Source: an uncultured Paracraurococcus sp. (GTDB taxonomy: Bacteria; Pseudomonadota; Alphaproteobacteria; Acetobacterales; Acetobacteraceae). From it: DNA of 45,174 nt. Positions 2,753 through 29,661 of this stretch are shown piece after piece; the stretch's first letter is position 1; each line of letters opens with the position of its first letter. Below the pieces are notes generated by a model. That model saw nothing but the letters and a program-made list of their open reading frames with translations, was not told the DNA's origin and made no database searches. The DNA is taken from positions 1-45,174 of the forward strand of contig CAITYE010000337.1 in assembly GCA_903896535.1 (NCBI GenBank). Direction: 5' to 3'. A program made the position numbers and the translations under genes.

Positions 2753-2881
2753 CTAGGGCAATATCCGTTCAGACGAAATCGTCTGAACGGATTTCTTGCT
2801 CTAGAGAATATCGATTCCAGAGCACCTTATCTCCGGCCTGATGGAACACGGTGTGATCCATCAGGCCGGAGGCTGGTCTAG
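2753..2881. repeat. Palindromic intergenic element with two perfect hairpins and CTAG edges
   Basis: The element contains two perfect inverted repeats: 2763-2776 with 2779-2792 (14-bp arms, 2-nt gap) and 2831-2845 with 2857-2871 (15-bp arms, 11-nt loop). CTAG occurs at 2753-2756 and again at 2878-2881, where repeat copy 2 begins. A third CTAG-containing piece (GCTCTAGAG) lies between the hairpins. It lies upstream of the start of the 538-residue membrane protein gene, so the hairpins are not a terminator for that gene. The hairpins differ in sequence from the 106-bp family. Confidence 0.6.
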
Positions 2882-2983
2882 AGCATGCTGCGTTCGCATT
2901 CGTTCACGCACCCTGCTCTGACGTTTGTTTGGTCGCGGGATCCAGCGTTTCCGGCGATTCCGCCTCAATGCATCCCGCTCTAG
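2878..2983 (+). repeat. 106-bp repeat family, copy 2 (full length)
   Basis: This copy starts CTAGAGCATGCTGCGTTC and ends GCATCCCGCTCTAG, 106 bp including both CTAG edges. Internally it diverges modestly from copies 3-5 and is closer to copy 7 (TTTGTTTGGTCGCGGGAT in both). Its right CTAG contains the TAG stop of the minus-strand 49-residue gene. Confidence 0.9.
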
Positions 2984-3225: not shown

Positions 3226-3969
3226 GTGGGCCAACCGCGCGCGAGGATGGGAACCTGCCGCCATGAAGATATGGATGGCTGCTGGGCGGAGCTGGCGCGG
3301 CTCGGCAAGGACCGGAATCCCTATCGGGCGGGCTTCGTGCAATTCGTGGGTGTCGCCGAGACGCGCGAGCAAGCGATGGAGCTCTACCGCGAGCCGGCCG
3401 TGTATTTTTACGGCCGCTGCCTGCACGTCGATGCCAAATGGGCGACACCGCCGGGCTACGTCACCGAAGCAACCCAGGTTGCGGGGATGAAAAGCCAGGT
3501 TGCAGCCGCGGCGGACGGCTAGAGCATGCTGCGTTCACCTGCGTTCACGCAGCCCGCTCTAGCATGTGTTGGATCGCGCGATTCAGCGCCTTCGGCGATT
3601 CCGCCTCAACGCATCGCGCTCTAGAGCACCTTGGGCAAGGGCACCCAGGAACGCTTCGCCGGCACCGCCAAGGACACGGAAGGCATTGTCGAGCGCGGCT
3701 ACGTCCTCATCGGCAGCCCGGACGAGGTCGCGGAACAACTGCGCGAAGTGGCGACGACGCTCAACGTCGGCCACCTGATGCTGCTGCTGCAGTTCGGCAA
3801 CATCTCGAAGCAACTGACGCAGTACAACACCCGACTTTCTACCGAAAAGTTGATGCCGCAGCTCCGCAACCTCTTCTCCGAGTCGGAGGATCACTGGTGG
3901 CCGAAGCCGATGGACGCCAACGAATGCGCCGAGCTGCCTGCCTTCACCCCAAAGCTGGTCGTCGAGTAG
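3226..3969 (+). pseudogene. Luciferase-like (LLM-class) flavin monooxygenase, 5'-truncated and split by a repeat
   Basis: Two pieces of one protein lie in the same frame. Piece A (about 3271-3522) has WAELARLGKDRNPYRAGF and EPAVYFYGRCLHVD, typical of the middle of bacterial luciferase-family monooxygenases. Piece B (about 3625-3969) has GYVLIGSPDEVAEQL, GHLMLLLQFGNI and a DHWWPKP tail, typical of their C-terminus. Between them is repeat copy 3 with a TAG at each edge. The N-terminal half, with the TIM-barrel start and flavin site, is missing upstream, where no matching frame exists. Family members are roughly 350-400 residues; only about 200 remain. Removing the repeat would still leave one in-frame TAG, so the gene may have been dead before the insertion. 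Confidence 0.75.
3519..3624 (+). repeat. 106-bp repeat family, copy 3 (full length, inside a pseudogene)
   Basis: It starts CTAGAGCATGCTGCGTTC and ends GCATCGCGCTCTAG. It is the reference copy for the best-preserved group (copies 3-6). The left half folds as CTAGAGC-AT-GCTGCGT against ACGCAGC-CC-GCTCTAG, and the internal ATCGCGCGAT is a perfect palindrome. It lies in frame inside the luciferase-like pseudogene. The net insertion is 102 bp if CTAG is the duplicated target, which is a multiple of three. Confidence 0.95.
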
Positions 3970-5016: not shown

Positions 5017-6405
5017 ATGACCGATCTCGCCAGAATCCTCGCCGCCCTCGATACGGATGTCCCGGCCTCCCGCGAACGATTGATGGATTGGCTGCGCATT
5101 CCCAGCATCAGCGCGCAGCCCGCCCATGCCAAAGACTGCCTCGCCGCCGCCACCTGGGCGCGCGATACCTTGACCAGTCTCGGCTTTCAGGCCGGCATTC
5201 GCCCCACCGCCGGGCAGCCCGTCGTGATCGGGCATCACCCCGGCCCGGGCGGCGCCGTGCCGCATCTGCTGTTCTACGGGCATTACGATGTGCAGCCGGC
5301 GGATCCCTTGGAGCTGTGGACCTCGCCACCCTTTGCGCCAGTGCTGGCGGAAGGACCGCACGGGCCGCGCGTGGTGGCCCGTGGTGCGGTGGACGACAAG
5401 GGACAATGCAGTATGTGGCTTGACGCCTTTCGTGCCTGGCAGGCGGCGGCGGGCGGGCCTCCCTGCCGCATCACAGTGCTGATCGAGGGCGAGGAGGAGG
5501 TCGGCTCACCGAGCCTCGATGCTTTCCTGGCCGCGAACCGGGCCGAACTTGCCGCCGATGTCGCGGTGATCAGTGATACCGGCATGTGGGACATCGCGAC
5601 GCCGGCGATCACCACCCAGCTGCGCGGCATGGTCTATTGCCAGATCGATTTGCGCGCCGCCGGGCGGGACCTGCATTCCGGCCTCTATGGTGGCTCGGCC
5701 CGCAACGTCATCAACCTGCTCACACAGATCCTCGGTGCGTTGCACGACGAGAACGGCCGCGTCCAGATCCCCGGCTTCTATGACGGCGTGAAGGAGCTTA
5801 GCAACGCGCAGCGCATGGAATGGGACAGCCTTGGCTTCGACGAGGCAGCCTTCCTTGGCGAAATCGGCCTCGTCCAGCCGATCGGTGAGCGCGGACGCGG
5901 CGCGCTGGAGCGTCTCTGGGCGCGGCCGACCGCCGACCTCAACGGTATCTGGGGCGGCTATACCGGCGCCGGCAGCAAGACAGTCATCGCCGCAGAAGCC
6001 CATGCCAAGCTGTCCTGCCGGCTGGTCCCCGGGCAGGACCCGGCGAAGGTGGTTGAGGGGATCCGCCGCTTCGTCGCCGATCGCCTGCCGGCGGATTGCC
6101 AGCTGGAGATGCAGCTTTTCAGCACCACCCCAGGCATCGAGGTCCCGGCCGATAGCCGCTGGGTGCAGGCCGCGCGACGGGCGCTGACCGCAGAATACGG
6201 AAAGCCCGCGGTGCTGATGGGCTGCGGTGGCTCCATCCCTGTGGTCGAGAGCCTGAAGCGTATCCTCGGCCTCGACAGTCTGCTTGTCGGCTTCGGGCTG
6301 AATGACGACCAGGTGCATAGCCCGAACGAGAAATTCGAGCTGACCTGCCTGCATAAGGGCGCCCGCAGCCACGCCCGGCTGCTGGCGGAAATCGCCGCCA
6401 GCTAG
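5017..6405 (+). CDS. M20 family metallopeptidase (dipeptidase, CNDP-like)
   Basis: A 462-residue zinc hydrolase that would cleave dipeptides or N-acyl amino acids. The two-zinc ligand set can be followed: His in FYGHYDVQ (about residue 89), Asp in GAVDDKGQ (about 126-127), Glu pair in EGEEEVGS (about 160), Asp in ISDTGMW (187) and a late His in DDQVHSPNE. The dimerisation (lid) domain sits between residues about 200 and 320. The ATG at 5017 starts a normal N-terminus; a longer in-frame extension would run antisense through the dehydrogenase gene and is rejected. The TAG stop at 6403-6405 lies in the CTAG that opens repeat copy 4. Confidence 0.92.
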   Translation: MTDLARILAALDTDVPASRERLMDWLRIPSISAQPAHAKDCLAAATWARDTLTSLGFQAGIRPTAGQPVVIGHHPGPGGAVPHLLFYGHYDVQPADPLELWTSPPFAPVLAEGPHGPRVVARGAVDDKGQCSMWLDAFRAWQAAAGGPPCRITVLIEGEEEVGSPSLDAFLAANRAELAADVAVISDTGMWDIATPAITTQLRGMVYCQIDLRAAGRDLHSGLYGGSARNVINLLTQILGALHDENGRVQIPGFYDGVKELSNAQRMEWDSLGFDEAAFLGEIGLVQPIGERGRGALERLWARPTADLNGIWGGYTGAGSKTVIAAEAHAKLSCRLVPGQDPAKVVEGIRRFVADRLPADCQLEMQLFSTTPGIEVPADSRWVQAARRALTAEYGKPAVLMGCGGSIPVVESLKRILGLDSLLVGFGLNDDQVHSPNEKFELTCLHKGARSHARLLAEIAAS

Positions 6406-6507
6406 AGCATGCTGCGTTCACATGCGTTCAGGCAGCCCGCTCTAGCATGTGTTGGATCGCGCGATTCAGCGTTATCGGCGATTCCGCCTCAACGCATCGC
6501 GCTCTAG
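6402..6507 (+). repeat. 106-bp repeat family, copy 4 (tandem with copy 5)
   Basis: CTAGAGCATGCTGCGTTC to GCATCGCGCTCTAG, 106 bp. Very close to copies 3 and 5 (it shares the variant AGCGTTATCGGCG with copy 5). Its right CTAG (6504-6507) is also the left CTAG of copy 5. Its left CTAG carries the stop codon of the M20 peptidase. Confidence 0.95.
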
Positions 6508-6609
6508 AGCATGCTGCGTTCACATACGTTCACGCAGCCCGCTCTAGCATTTGTTGGATCGCGCGATTCAGCGTTATCGGCGATTCCGCCTCAACGCATC
6601 GCGCTCTAA
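6504..6609 (+). repeat. 106-bp repeat family, copy 5 (tandem with copy 4)
   Basis: CTAGAGCATGCTGCGTTC to GCATCGCGCTCTAA, 106 bp, in direct head-to-tail contact with copy 4. The right edge CTAA (6606-6609) contains the stop codon of the minus-strand Host_attach gene, read as TAG on that strand. The pair therefore fills the whole space between two convergent genes. Confidence 0.95.
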
Positions 6610-8660: not shown

Positions 8661-10289
8661 ATGGCAGATCAGATACCGCAGGAGGCGGATTACATCGTCG
8701 TCGGGGCGGGCTCGGCCGGCTGCGCGGTGGCGGCGCGGCTGTCCGAGGAGAGCGGCGCGCGCGTGGTGCTGCTGGAAGCCGGCAGCCGCGATACCAACCC
8801 GTGGCTGCATGTGCCGATCGGCTATGCGCGGACCATGTACCACCCGACGCTGTCGTGGAATTTGGTCACGGAGCCGGAGCCAGAATTGCATAATCGCCGC
8901 ATCCCCTGGCCGCGCGGCCGCACGCTTGGCGGCTCCTCGGCGATCAACGGGCTGCTCTATCTGCGCGGGCAGATGGCGGATTACGACCATTGGCGTCAGC
9001 TGGGCTGCACGGGCTGGGCCTTCGATGACGTGCTGCCCTTCTTCCGCCAGGCCGAGGACCAGGAACGCGGCGAGAGCCGGCTGCATGGCAAGGGCGGGCC
9101 GCTTGCGGTCAGCGATCTGCGCGACCGCAACCCGCTGGCCATGGCCTTCATCGAGGCGGCTGCCGAGCTCGGCTTCCCGCGCAACGATGATTTCAATGGC
9201 GAGACTCAGGAAGGCGCCGGGCTGTTTCAGGTGACAGCGCGTGATGGCTGGCGCTGCTCCTCGGCAACGGCCTATCTGAAGCCGGCGCGGGGGCGGGACA
9301 ACCTGAGTACCGTGACGGATGCGCATGCCGAAGCTGTCGTGCTGGAAGGCCGGCGGGCGGCCGGCGTGCGCTTTCGCCGGCACGGCGCTGTGCTGACCAT
9401 CCGGGCAAAGCGAGAGGTCATCCTCTGCGGCGGGGCCATCGCCTCACCGCACCTGCTGTTGCTCTCGGGCATCGGCCCAGCCGAGCACCTCCACGCGGTC
9501 GGCCTCCCCGTGCAGCACGACCTGGCGCAAGTCGGGCGCAATCTGCAGGACCATTTCCAGGCCCGCGCCGCCTATCGCGTCAAAGGGCCGGGCAGTCTGA
9601 ATAAGCGCGTGACCTCGCTGCTCGGCAAGCTGGCGATGGGGGCGGAGTTCGCGCTGCGCCGCCGGGGGCCGCTGACCGTCAGTGCGGGCACAGCAGGGCT
9701 CTTCGCCCGCGTCCTGCCGGGCAGCGAGACGCCCGATGTGCAGTACCACTTCCTGCCCTTCAGCTCATCGAAGACGATGATGGAACTGCACGACTTCCCG
9801 GGCATGACGATCAGCGCGTGCCAATTGCGGCCAGAGAGCCGCGGCACGATCACCCTGGCCAGCCCCGACCCGCTGGCCAAGGCGCTGATCCATGCGAACT
9901 ACCTGGCGACCGAGACAGACCGGCGCTGCATGGTCGGGGGCATCAAGTTGGCACGCCGACTAGCCGCAACGGAGGCCTTCGCCGGCATAATCGAGAGCGA
10001 GGTATTGCCGGGACAGGCCCTGTCCGGGGATGCCGAGATCCTCGACTGGATCCGGGCGACCGGCGGCACGATCTATCACCCGAGCGGCACCTGCCGCATG
10101 GGCGGCGACCCGGCCAGCGTCGTCGACCCCGAATTGCGGGTACGCGGCATTGGCGGCTTGCGGGTGGCGGATGCCTCGATCATGCCGACCGTCGTCTCCG
10201 GTAATACCAACGCGCCCTGCATCATGATCGGCGAGAAATGCGCCGCGATGGTGCTGCAGGCGGCGCGGGAGGAGCGGCTGGCGGCCTAA
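8661..10289 (+). CDS. GMC family oxidoreductase (choline/alcohol dehydrogenase type)
   Basis: A 542-residue FAD-dependent alcohol oxidoreductase. The ADP-binding motif is VVGAGSAGCAVAARL (residues 13-27). GMC signature 1 is seen at PRGRTLGGSSAINGLLYLRG and signature 2 at GGAIASPHLLLLSGIGP. The C-terminal catalytic His is in YHPSGTCRMG, with the downstream GNTNAPCIMIGEKCA motif. Length and motifs fit choline-dehydrogenase-like enzymes, but many family members oxidise other alcohols and no betaine-aldehyde dehydrogenase is nearby. The start ATG has GAGGGAGAG upstream. The TAA stop at 10287-10289 lies in the edge of repeat copy 6. Two flavin dehydrogenases with a shared divergent promoter suggest joint use in oxidising hydroxy compounds. 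Confidence 0.92.
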   Translation: MADQIPQEADYIVVGAGSAGCAVAARLSEESGARVVLLEAGSRDTNPWLHVPIGYARTMYHPTLSWNLVTEPEPELHNRRIPWPRGRTLGGSSAINGLLYLRGQMADYDHWRQLGCTGWAFDDVLPFFRQAEDQERGESRLHGKGGPLAVSDLRDRNPLAMAFIEAAAELGFPRNDDFNGETQEGAGLFQVTARDGWRCSSATAYLKPARGRDNLSTVTDAHAEAVVLEGRRAAGVRFRRHGAVLTIRAKREVILCGGAIASPHLLLLSGIGPAEHLHAVGLPVQHDLAQVGRNLQDHFQARAAYRVKGPGSLNKRVTSLLGKLAMGAEFALRRRGPLTVSAGTAGLFARVLPGSETPDVQYHFLPFSSSKTMMELHDFPGMTISACQLRPESRGTITLASPDPLAKALIHANYLATETDRRCMVGGIKLARRLAATEAFAGIIESEVLPGQALSGDAEILDWIRATGGTIYHPSGTCRMGGDPASVVDPELRVRGIGGLRVADASIMPTVVSGNTNAPCIMIGEKCAAMVLQAAREERLAA

Positions 10290-10391
10290 AGCGCGATGCG
10301 TTGAGGCGGAATCGCCGAAGGCGCTGAATCGCGCGATCCAACAAAGGCTAGAGCGGGCTGCGTGAACGCATGTGAACGCAGCAGGCCCTAA
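10286..10391 (-). repeat. 106-bp repeat family, copy 6 (full length, inverted)
   Basis: Reverse complement of the family: begins CTAAAGCGCGATGCGTTGAG and ends GCAGGCCCTAA, 106 bp. The edges are CTAA at both ends. The left CTAA holds the TAA stop of the GMC oxidoreductase. It is the only copy in this orientation in the window. Confidence 0.93.
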
Positions 10392-10417
10392 AGCGGGCGG
10401 CGTGCGCTGCGCATGCC

Positions 10418-10529
10418 CTAGTGGTCCGATCCCGACGCTTGGTACCCAAGCGTCGGGTGAATCGGCCTACCAAATCAATGGCTAGTGGTGCGTACCAGAC
10501 GGTACCATCCGTCTGGCACGCACCACTAG
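10418..10529. repeat. Composite palindromic element with CTAGTGGT / ACCACTAG ends
   Basis: Starts CTAGTGGT (10418-10425) and ends ACCACTAG (10522-10529); a second CTAGTGGT lies at 10482-10489. It contains a perfect hairpin CCCGACGCTTGG-TAC-CCAAGCGTCGGG (10431-10457), and a long hairpin with 21-bp arms and one mismatch (10482-10502 with 10509-10529). The perfect terminal inverted repeats and CTAG edges look like a second, unrelated non-autonomous element. It lies between the GMC oxidoreductase and DUF6817 genes, which converge. Confidence 0.75.
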
Positions 10530-10536
10530 GTTGACG

Positions 10537-10570
10537 TTTCAGAGCATCCGCACGTGTTCTGACGCTCTAA
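10537..10570. repeat. Short AGAGC...GCTCTAA remnant at the DUF6817 stop codon
   Basis: AGAGC at 10541-10545 and GCTCTAA at 10564-10570 bracket about 20 bp. The ends resemble the edges of the 106-bp family but the interior does not match. The TAG stop of the minus-strand DUF6817 gene (10569-10567) lies in the right edge, so this may be a deleted copy or a third element type. Confidence 0.35.
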
Positions 10571-11637
10571 GCCCCGACCAGACCGAGGCTATTCAGCCCG
10601 CCGAGGGTATCGGGCCAGCGCCTGGCCTCGGCGGATTGGACCAGGATGCGCGCCCAGGCGACCCAGCCGGACCAGGCGATGCGCTTGTCCCAGGCGACAC
10701 CCCAATCCTGCAGCAAGGCAAGCCCGGCCCCAGCATGATCGGCCGCCATGGTCCAATCCCCGGCGATCAGGCCGAGTTGCGCCAGCATTAGCCGTGGCTC
10801 CGCGACGAAGGGGTTGTGGCGGATGCAAGCATCCAGCGCCGCATGCGTTGGTCCAAGCCCGGCGCTCGGCAGGCCGCGCGTCACGGCCTGCCAATAGAGC
10901 GCCGCGGCTGCCACCTCGTCGGCCTGATCGAGGGTCGCGGTACAGCGCGCGAAAACCGGCGGTACCGGCAAGCCAAATTCCTCGGGCATGTCGCCGAGTG
11001 GCGCCGCGAGGCGTGAGAGCACCGAGAGCATGCAAGACGTCGGCTTCAACGGCCCGGGCCAGAGCGCGGCGGGCCAGTTCTCTCGGATCGGGCGGACCTT
11101 CATGAAAGGGAAGCCCGCGAAGATCTCGTCCTGCCAGGAATGCCATTGCTCGGCGATATCGGCGATGGTGGCGATGGCAAACAGCGCGACCTCACGCGGG
11201 GCGAGGTGGAGGGCGGGCCTGCCGTCCGGGGCCAACAGCAGCCCCTCCTCCGGGAGCGTCTCCAGGGTCAGGAGGCGCTGGGTAAAGAGGGTTCGCGGCA
11301 TGCTGCAGAAAAGATGGATCAACCGCTCGGTCTCGGCGCCCAACACCTCGGCCAGGGCGCCGCGATTCCCGCCGGCGTCGAACAATTTCAGGTCGACATA
11401 CTCATTCGAATAGACGCTATGGAACAGGCCAAGCAGCTTGACCTCACGTGGCTGATCCCACAGAGCCAGGGTGCGATAGACGCCCTGCAAATGATCCTTG
11501 AAGGTCCCGGCCTTGTGCCAGTCCTCCCCGGCCGAGCGGTCGAGGATGAGAGCGAGTTGGCCGGGTAGGTCCGGGTCAACCGCCGCCCAATCCTCGGCAA
11601 GCAGGGGTTTCAGATGGGGATGCAGGCGCTCTGGCAT
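10567..11637 (-). CDS. DUF6817 domain-containing protein (HD-like)
   Basis: A 356-residue soluble protein. The N-terminal region (residues about 25-150) carries HKAGTFKDHLQGVYRTLALW and GLFHSVYSNEYVDLKLFD, the His/Asp-rich helices of the DUF6817 family, which resemble a divergent HD domain. The C-terminal half has helical pairs (EVAAAALYWQAVTRGLPSAG, NPFVAEPRLMLAQLGLIAGD) like TPR units. The ATG at 11637 (MPERLHPHLKP) was chosen; the longer frame adds a low-complexity Gly/Pro/Ser stretch that reads across tandem repeats. Function is unknown; HD-like metal-dependent hydrolase activity is only a possibility. Its stop sits in a CTAA-type edge next to the palindromic elements. Confidence 0.65.
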   Translation of the reverse strand: MPERLHPHLKPLLAEDWAAVDPDLPGQLALILDRSAGEDWHKAGTFKDHLQGVYRTLALWDQPREVKLLGLFHSVYSNEYVDLKLFDAGGNRGALAEVLGAETERLIHLFCSMPRTLFTQRLLTLETLPEEGLLLAPDGRPALHLAPREVALFAIATIADIAEQWHSWQDEIFAGFPFMKVRPIRENWPAALWPGPLKPTSCMLSVLSRLAAPLGDMPEEFGLPVPPVFARCTATLDQADEVAAAALYWQAVTRGLPSAGLGPTHAALDACIRHNPFVAEPRLMLAQLGLIAGDWTMAADHAGAGLALLQDWGVAWDKRIAWSGWVAWARILVQSAEARRWPDTLGGLNSLGLVGA

Positions 11638-11648
11638 GGGTGAGGATT

Positions 11649-11720
11649 GGCAGGCCAGGTCGCGGCCGGCAAGGGAAGGCGGGCCTGGCCTGCCAGAGCC
11701 TGGGCTGCCAGAGCCTGGGC
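11649..11720. repeat. Inverted and tandem short repeats upstream of the DUF6817 gene
   Basis: GGCAGGCCAGG (11649-11659) is perfectly inverted as CCTGGCCTGCC (11684-11694). Overlapping its right arm is a perfect tandem duplication of the 15-mer TGCCAGAGCCTGGGC (11691-11705 and 11706-11720). It sits in the upstream region of the DUF6817 gene and runs up to repeat copy 7. Confidence 0.7.
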
Positions 11721-11724
11721 GGCT

Positions 11725-11830
11725 CTTGAGCGGGATGCGTTCGCTTCCGCCCACGTCTCCCGCTCAGACCTTTGTTTGGTCGCGGGATTCAGCATTCTTG
11801 CCGATTCCGCCTCAACGCATCCCGCCCTAA
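11725..11830 (+). repeat. 106-bp repeat family, copy 7 (full length, diverged)
   Basis: Begins CTTGAGCGGGATGCGTTCGC and ends GCATCCCGCCCTAA; 106 bp. The left half is the most diverged of the full copies, while the right half keeps GATTCCGCCTCAACGCATC. The right edge CTAA (11827-11830) holds the stop codon of the minus-strand lipoprotein gene. This is the last copy in the window; none is seen from here to 45174. Confidence 0.85.
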
Positions 11831-29384: not shown

Positions 29385-29433
29385 TACTGCCGATGCGTCG
29401 GTGCACCTCGCCCGACACGCACGAGACAACTCT

Positions 29434-29621
29434 GCGCCGGCCGGTCTCCTGGCTCACGGTGTGGAACCCGCATCGGGTTCCGGGGTTCGCCGCCTTCTCA
29501 CCCTCGCGGGGCAATGGCATCAGGCGAACCGCACCGCCTACAGTTGCGAGGGCAGCCGCGGACTGGGAGGAAAAGACCCCTTCGCGCGTTCCCGTTTCAG
29601 CCCTTGCGGGCCACCGGCGCA
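29434..29621 (-). promoter_or_regulatory. Cobalamin (B12) riboswitch upstream of btuB
   Basis: On the minus strand this leader has the class-defining elements in order: the P1 5' arm CGCCGG with GGTG just inside (near 29619-29611), the core GCTGCCCTCGCAACTGTAGG (near 29550), the ATGCCATTG box, the GGGTGAGAAGGC segment, and the B12 box GAGCCAGGAGACCGGCC (near 29455-29439) that closes P1 with CCGGCG. It lies about 150 nt upstream of the btuB start. By analogy with other such leaders, bound adenosylcobalamin should lower btuB expression. It begins about 40 bp after the exoD stop on the same strand, so a promoter must lie in that short stretch or in exoD. Confidence 0.93.
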
Positions 29622-29661
29622 TGGATGAAGTACAGCAAGCGCGTTAGCAGCCGTCAAGGGC

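Follow-up and report, generated by a model that had tools for sequence, protein, structure and literature searches.

Probable IS630-type mini-elements clustered at CTAG sites between two convergent genes, and a GANTC signature in alphaproteobacterial IS630 ends

CTAR-edged modules between two convergent genes

The window, the whole 45,174-nucleotide stretch analysed here, is contig C337 of an uncultured Paracraurococcus genome of 4.5 Mb in 561 contigs. A GMC oxidoreductase gene and a DUF6817 gene converge within it on a 277-bp gap, measured from the GMC oxidoreductase stop to the DUF6817 gene end (10567), and the gap is almost entirely occupied by modules edged with CTAR words. Features of the gap and related repeats are as follows.

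8661..10289, plus strand: GMC oxidoreductase gene (PF00732/PF05199; domain matches)
10286..10390, plus strand: AGAGC-family mini-element, CTAA-hairpin-linker-CTAG(10348)-hairpin-CTAA(10388) (repeat comparison)
10388..10421, plus strand: short module from CTAA to CTAG, similar to the second AGAGC-family hairpin (sequence and CTAR positions; relation judged by eye)
10418..10529, plus strand: E1, very probably a complete IS630-type mini-element (MITE), CTAG-H1-linker-CTAG-H2-CTAG (repeats, fold, end comparison)
10422..10472, plus strand: H1 hairpin of E1, its stem covarying across genera (fold and alignment)
10482..10529, plus strand: H2 palindrome of E1, from CTAG to CTAG, varying in sequence between genera with the palindrome mostly kept
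10540..10570, no strand assigned: CAGAGC...GCTCTAA remnant (sequence)
10567..11754, minus strand: DUF6817 gene (PF20680; domain match)
2879..2983, minus strand: AGAGC-family copy, GANTC at +24 (repeat comparison)
3520..3624, minus strand: AGAGC-family copy, GANTC at +24 (repeat comparison)
6403..6507, minus strand: AGAGC-family copy, GANTC at +24 (repeat comparison)
6505..6609, minus strand: AGAGC-family copy in tandem with 6403..6507, with a common edge; GANTC at +24 (repeat comparison)
11726..11830, minus strand: diverged AGAGC-family copy, GANTC at +24 (repeat comparison)

CTAR words stand in or at the gap at 10286, 10348, 10388, 10418, 10482, 10526 and 10567, and these positions delimit an extra module, 10388-10421, absent from an earlier note on this DNA, which had otherwise correctly described the gap as almost entirely mobile-like. 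That note had also placed both stop codons in element edges, as is the case: the TAA of the GMC oxidoreductase gene (10287-10289) lies within the CTAA edge of the AGAGC-family mini-element at 10286, and the TAG of the DUF6817 gene, read from CTA at 10567, overlaps the CTAA edge there. The inverted repeat copy it reported is 10286-10390, inverted relative to 3520-3624 (94% identity), 6403-6507 (91%) and 2879-2983 (82%), and its AGAGC...GCTCTAA remnant is the piece at 10540-10570, which is too short for family assignment and matches IS630 ends weakly (12/26). Relative to composition, CTAG is the rarest palindromic 4-mer of the window, with 32 occurrences against 136 expected from base composition and 43 under a Markov expectation. 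Elsewhere in the window, a cobalamin riboswitch (RF00174, 93 bits) lies at 29422-29633 on the minus strand.

Structure, copies and insertion target of E1

E1 is 112 bp long, carries no transposase gene and exists in many copies. The perfect ends and two hairpins assigned to it from the letters alone are upheld: its termini are exactly CTAGTGGT/ACCACTAG, and its DNA fold of -46 kcal/mol lies far below that of shuffled sequences (-16.5, sd 2.6; 0/200 as low). BLAST of E1 against its own genome gave 88 alignments, counting both strands of palindromes, which correspond to 11 near-full-length places and many cut ones; 30 E1 loci of this genome were retrieved. Diverged matches occur in 20/299 genomes of the order, the present one included, and in 11/65 genera (E <= 1e-5), while an 18-mer of the inner arm recurs in at least 98 stretches of named contigs, mostly from Roseomonas, Rhodopila and other Acetobacteraceae MAGs, a few of which (L097, L120, L139) show no surrounding element and are put down to chance. 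An exact 21-mer of E1 had no match in genome contigs, and a DNA search of plasmids with E1 and the AGAGC copy likewise returned none.

Copies follow the plan CTAG-H1-linker-CTAG-H2-CTAG and mostly measure 102-128 bp. Their H1 hairpins are imperfect and covarying, with a conserved bulge: in an alignment of 34 diverse sequences (A1, drawn from 45 representatives of 120 distinct H1, some a few bases off at their ends), pairing holds in 92.5% of cells and 11/21 pairs change on both sides, against at most 43% pairing in slid controls. The invariance of the inner arm in A1 is by construction, because most sequences were found by the inner-arm 18-mer, which left the upper stem free; the covariation itself could arise without selection, through template-switch correction of palindromes. 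Tandem arrays of E1 modules were seen at L092:7701-8000, L115:5262-5398 and L089:6660-6741. At five loci of the own genome (L019, L020, L023, L028, L030), E1 passes within H2 into sequence of the AGAGC family, the junction being the common word GCGT, which points to recurrent recombination between palindromes or deletion.

Very stable folds, stem covariation and a position between convergent genes are what a conserved regulatory RNA, or a bidirectional terminator serving both genes, would display, and one terminator-like match was indeed found on the minus strand (10529-10482; 0.2 expected). The earlier note held that a regulatory RNA would be unique and conserved in place across genera; E1, however, is multicopy, none of 28 GMC loci from other genera and paralogues carries it, and Rfam contains no family for the hairpins beyond one chance-like match. 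A structural RNA conserved in place is rejected on the evidence of the GMC loci without E1 and the missing Rfam family, and the RNA or terminator reading as a whole is improbable, although some E1 copies may possibly have been used later as terminators.

Insertion can be followed at one site in genus g20, represented by four filled genomes and one well-aligned empty one. The empty site in G064 reads ..GCGCCTC-TA-TTTCGGCAGC.. (C-TA-TTTCGG), and the filled sites in G049, G278, G125 and G078 read ..GCGCCCC-TA-[GTGGTCC...CCAC]-TA-GTTTGGCAGC.. (C-TA-[GTGG...CCAC]-TA-GTTTGG), so that TA is duplicated and the TAG stop of the neighbouring gene is kept. As the empty site of G064 is CTAT, not CTAG, a substitution is needed besides the insertion; three further genomes are without the element at this site and keep CTATTTCGG. 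Insertion into other elements is evident at L005: an AGAGC copy, found elsewhere in uninterrupted form, is split there at its internal CTAG by E1. Among 28 outer edges of full copies in the own genome, nine have their CTAG in common with sequence starting AGC, where 1/64 is expected (p ~ 3e-10), and the elements therefore nest in each other's edges.

In relatives, 37/160 element edges supply the stop codon of a reading frame that has been open for at least 100 codons, and 3/23 do so in the own genome, compared with 46/259 for CTAGs outside elements and 211/18,806 for random positions. The difference between element edges in relatives and other CTAGs is not significant (Fisher p = 0.21), and the association with stops thus comes from the target; a special preference for stop codons is rejected on these counts. 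Of the 'YTAR-at-stop niche' that had been proposed, the edges as insertion target are retained and the preference for stops is unneeded. Since each insertion creates new CTAGs, elements cluster, and this logic explains simply why they gather where genes end.

IS630 transposases as candidate movers

IS630 transposases (DDE_3) are present in 17/19 other E1 genomes and in the own genome. One of them, P0001 of G224 (NF033545), has relatives in 55/299 genomes and CTAGTG ends, and in seven IS630 elements (L188, L194, L195, L196, L203, L205, L206) the transposase stop is the TAG of the end. An IS630-type element with ends like those of E1, as the earlier note had envisaged, was found: E1-family left ends match the IS630 5' end of L209 in 27/30 positions and the 3' end of L194 in 25/30, and the right end of L161 matches the 3' ends of L207, L201 and L199 in 26/30. 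Over the 24 bp after CTAGTG at left ends, the best IS ends score 18-21 and other CTAG sites mostly 8-11 (maximum 18); at right ends some other CTAG sites score 22-24, being probably the ends of further E1 copies left in the set. No transposase matching E1 was found in the own genome, the P0001 clade being undetected there at E <= 1e-30; this clade occurs in 2/20 E1 genomes against 3.7 expected and therefore shows no co-occurrence with E1. The own genome does hold an intact IS630 of another CTAG-flanked subfamily (L059:95-1591), with ends CTAGTGTYCTGTCGCAGTGAT and no GANTC in the visible ends.

AGAGC-family copies match an IS630 subfamily with CTAGAGC ends in 18-19/26 positions, and by this sequence resemblance probably belong to that second subfamily, of which the own genome carries a fragment of an element at a contig end. 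The earlier suggestion that several unrelated elements use one niche is not sustained: E1 and the AGAGC copy are alike in plan and in target, and for each there is an IS630 subfamily that it resembles.

Two other transposase families have been weighed. An IS5-type (IS427/IS711-like) enzyme duplicating TA at YTAR is suggested by IS711, for which the available part of PMC3163539 describes duplication of TA at YTAR sites, including within a Bru-RS1 repeat. The searches, which covered IS630 and Y1 transposases, turned up IS630 elements that use the CTAG target and match E1 closely at their ends, and an IS5-type mover is very unlikely. Least probable of all is that E1 belongs with REP/REPIN-like hairpins and is mobilised by a Y1 (RAYT) transposase recognising CTAG beside a hairpin. 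The tandem arrays, and a tetranucleotide next to hairpins that are imperfect, covary and keep a bulge, would conform to this reading, but it is nearly refuted by the absence of Y1 transposases (Y1_Tnp) from 19/20 E1 genomes, the sole match, in the own genome, being interpreted by us as IS605-like with TnpB-like traces, and is opposed by the TA duplication at the g20 site, as such duplication is not expected of Y1 transposition.

E1, repeated, hairpin-structured, similar to IS630 at its ends, nested with other elements and flanked at one site by a TA duplication that keeps the stop, is thus very probably a non-autonomous IS630-type (Tc1/mariner-like) mini-element, or MITE, inserted at CTAR, and we infer that IS630 transposases move both E1 and the AGAGC elements. 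A transposase acting in trans would excise E1 by its GTGG...CCAC ends and place it in CTAR words at TA, which would be duplicated, such that a CTAG target would leave CTAG at both edges. The rare CTAG would be tolerated mostly between genes or at TAG stops, and the new CTAGs provided by each insertion would let elements pile up in and beside each other, with gene stops ending up in their edges.

This scheme resembles that of CTAG-targeting, IS870-like IS630 elements in the CTAG target, the TA duplication and a transposase stop taken from the target's TAG (the seven elements above). IS870, compared here by title only, reportedly has its transposase stop codon supplied by the target; E1 differs in being geneless with two hairpins, and the accessible descriptions of these IS630 elements make no mention of GANTC. 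RUP of Streptococcus pneumoniae, an IS630-Spn1 MITE, is similar in length (about 107 bp), IS630-type ends, TA sites and insertion into other mobile elements, whereas a CTAG target and GANTC are absent from its description in the available part of PMC2229807, the comparison being with that description only.

GANTC sites in IS630 ends and mini-elements

GANTC is the recognition site of the methylase CcrM, and the own genome encodes a CcrM-like methylase (PF01555 and RAMA) scoring 594 bits with NF050803, below the cut-off of 830 for that model. In the P0001 clade within the order, non-redundant ends have GANTC at 3' +11 in 14/17 cases and at 5' +24 in 12/17; shuffled ends with any GANTC in 40 bp number about 2.1-2.2 on average and never more than 8. 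With other classes added, the 3' +11 site is present in 35/39 alphaproteobacterial against 2/17 other IS630 elements, and the 5' site in 20/32 against 1/17; the two 3' positives from outside the class are L254, which falls inside an alphaproteobacterial clade, and a Streptomyces element. In this wider comparison an end pair was obtained for 38/47 loci, of which five were dropped from the counts (L280 as a duplicate; L275, L273, L259 and L276 for doubtful ends). On the transposase tree, the five 3' GANTC columns change 0, 1, 10, 3 and 0 times in Alphaproteobacteria, G, A, T and C being held and the middle base as free as the flanks (4-9 and 6-8 changes), compared with 1, 5, 7, 5 and 3 times elsewhere. 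The contrast between the two groups amounts to 2-4 independent pairs (two on starred branches, four on all), short of significance by that test.

In the CTAGAGC-type elements, GANTC stands exactly at +24 of the transposase-5' end in 13/14, ten of them from other alphaproteobacterial families (end pairs were obtained for 16/48 loci, and 14 of these pairs are of the CTAGAGC type, including the near-copies L317 and L333 of a single genome). The same holds for 5/5 named plasmid copies with clear ends, from Chelativorans, Rhizobium, Dinoroseobacter, Sphingobium and Paracoccus; these are five of nine alphaproteobacterial records, the pairs of L341 and L345 having been judged spurious and L342 and L344 having given none. 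Overall, 18/19 members of the subfamily have the 5' +24 site, with N of all four kinds, and the site is absent from a Deinococcus element and from one of Azotobacter that has 61% identity to the query, whereas alphaproteobacterial elements at 54-67% identity have it. A second GANTC, often GGGATTCC, occurs at about +35 to +39 in the 5' ends of L312, L319, L321, L324, L331, L284 and L286. Beside a Sulfitobacter IS630, a 201-bp ORF (L289:64-264) bears the PLSDB label OXA-948 beta-lactamase, which is doubtful given its short length.

Many mini-elements retain such sites. All six first-hairpin ends among the eight AGAGC pattern matches in the window have GANTC at +24, as do 22 of the 39 distinct matches in the window and own loci combined, many of the others being second hairpins; the 10286-10390 copy has GANTC at 10309-10313 (+24 from the edge) and 10326-10330. 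E1-type elements have GANTC at right +11 in 4/14 BLAST-found copies and in 35/67 of the 18-mer-found copies among the matches listed, and in the inner arm in 13/14 BLAST-found copies; E1 itself has none at +11 or +24 and only the inner one, GAATC at 10459-10463 in H1.

Fixed GANTC could instead reflect transposase contacts with a free middle base, unrelated to CcrM, a reading that competes only with the methylation step. It draws on the location of the sites inside terminal repeats and on the few independent branches behind the alphaproteobacterial contrast; it is at odds with a +24 site common to two IS630 subfamilies that are otherwise unlike in their terminal bases, and with the absence of that site from the Azotobacter element at 61% identity when elements at 54-67% within the class keep it. 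We regard such contacts as a serious but less probable explanation. That the conserved GANTC places transposition under the influence of CcrM methylation, and through it of the passing fork, is in our estimation about as likely as not. By position, the sites lie on the transposase-leader side and in the terminal repeat, the +24 GANTC of L188 being some 30 bp before the transposase start.

Layouts of this kind recall the CcrM-associated intergenic repeats (CIR) of Caulobacter and Brucella, described in the available part of PMC2229807 as about 110 bp long, with two long arms, a linker and a conserved GANTC, and with a mobility mechanism given there as not known; part of a 2024 MITE review calls them strictly intergenic (PMC10969869). 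E1 resembles CIR, by description and not by sequence, in its length of about 110 bp, two arms with a linker, GANTC and alphaproteobacterial host, and differs in that its GAATC begins within the TGA bulge and a loop is not involved there, and in its indicated IS630 parentage; in the fold of the AGAGC copy, GANTC falls at a GGCG-GAAU-CGCC loop. By analogy with Dam-regulated IS10, listed as a case of methylation-regulated transposition in the available part of PMC10073500, a methylation site would be tied to a transposase and replication would gate transposition, with GANTC, CcrM and an IS630 transposase here in place of GATC and Dam, the likeness being one of site position alone. No report of CcrM control of any IS was found in the accessible portions of the open-licence literature (PMC5172544, PMC3667746 and PMC10073500 included).

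The cluster is ordinary in kind, consisting of IS630 mini-elements at CTAG, with one mechanism replacing 'unrelated elements', and the GANTC signature is worth following. Conserved in IS630 ends and kept in many mini-elements, GANTC may tie transposition to CcrM methylation and thus to passage of the fork. In its wider form, to which we give slightly less than an even chance, the proposal is that CcrM controls the IS630 elements of Alphaproteobacteria together with E1, AGAGC and probably CIR as their mini-elements, a leader GANTC, joined in the CTAGTG subfamily by a GANTC in the 3' terminal repeat, making expression and end activity depend on hemimethylation after the fork. To our knowledge, CIR-type repeats have for two decades appeared in lists as carriers of GANTC with neither a mover nor a reason for the site; here a CIR-like layout is tied to IS630 elements with GANTC at fixed positions. 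If true, CcrM control would correspond in Alphaproteobacteria to the control of IS10 by Dam, and the presence of GANTC in CIRs would be accounted for. If CcrM gates transposition, a second lineage, using another methylase, would independently have come to subject its mobile DNA to the cell cycle through adenine methylation.
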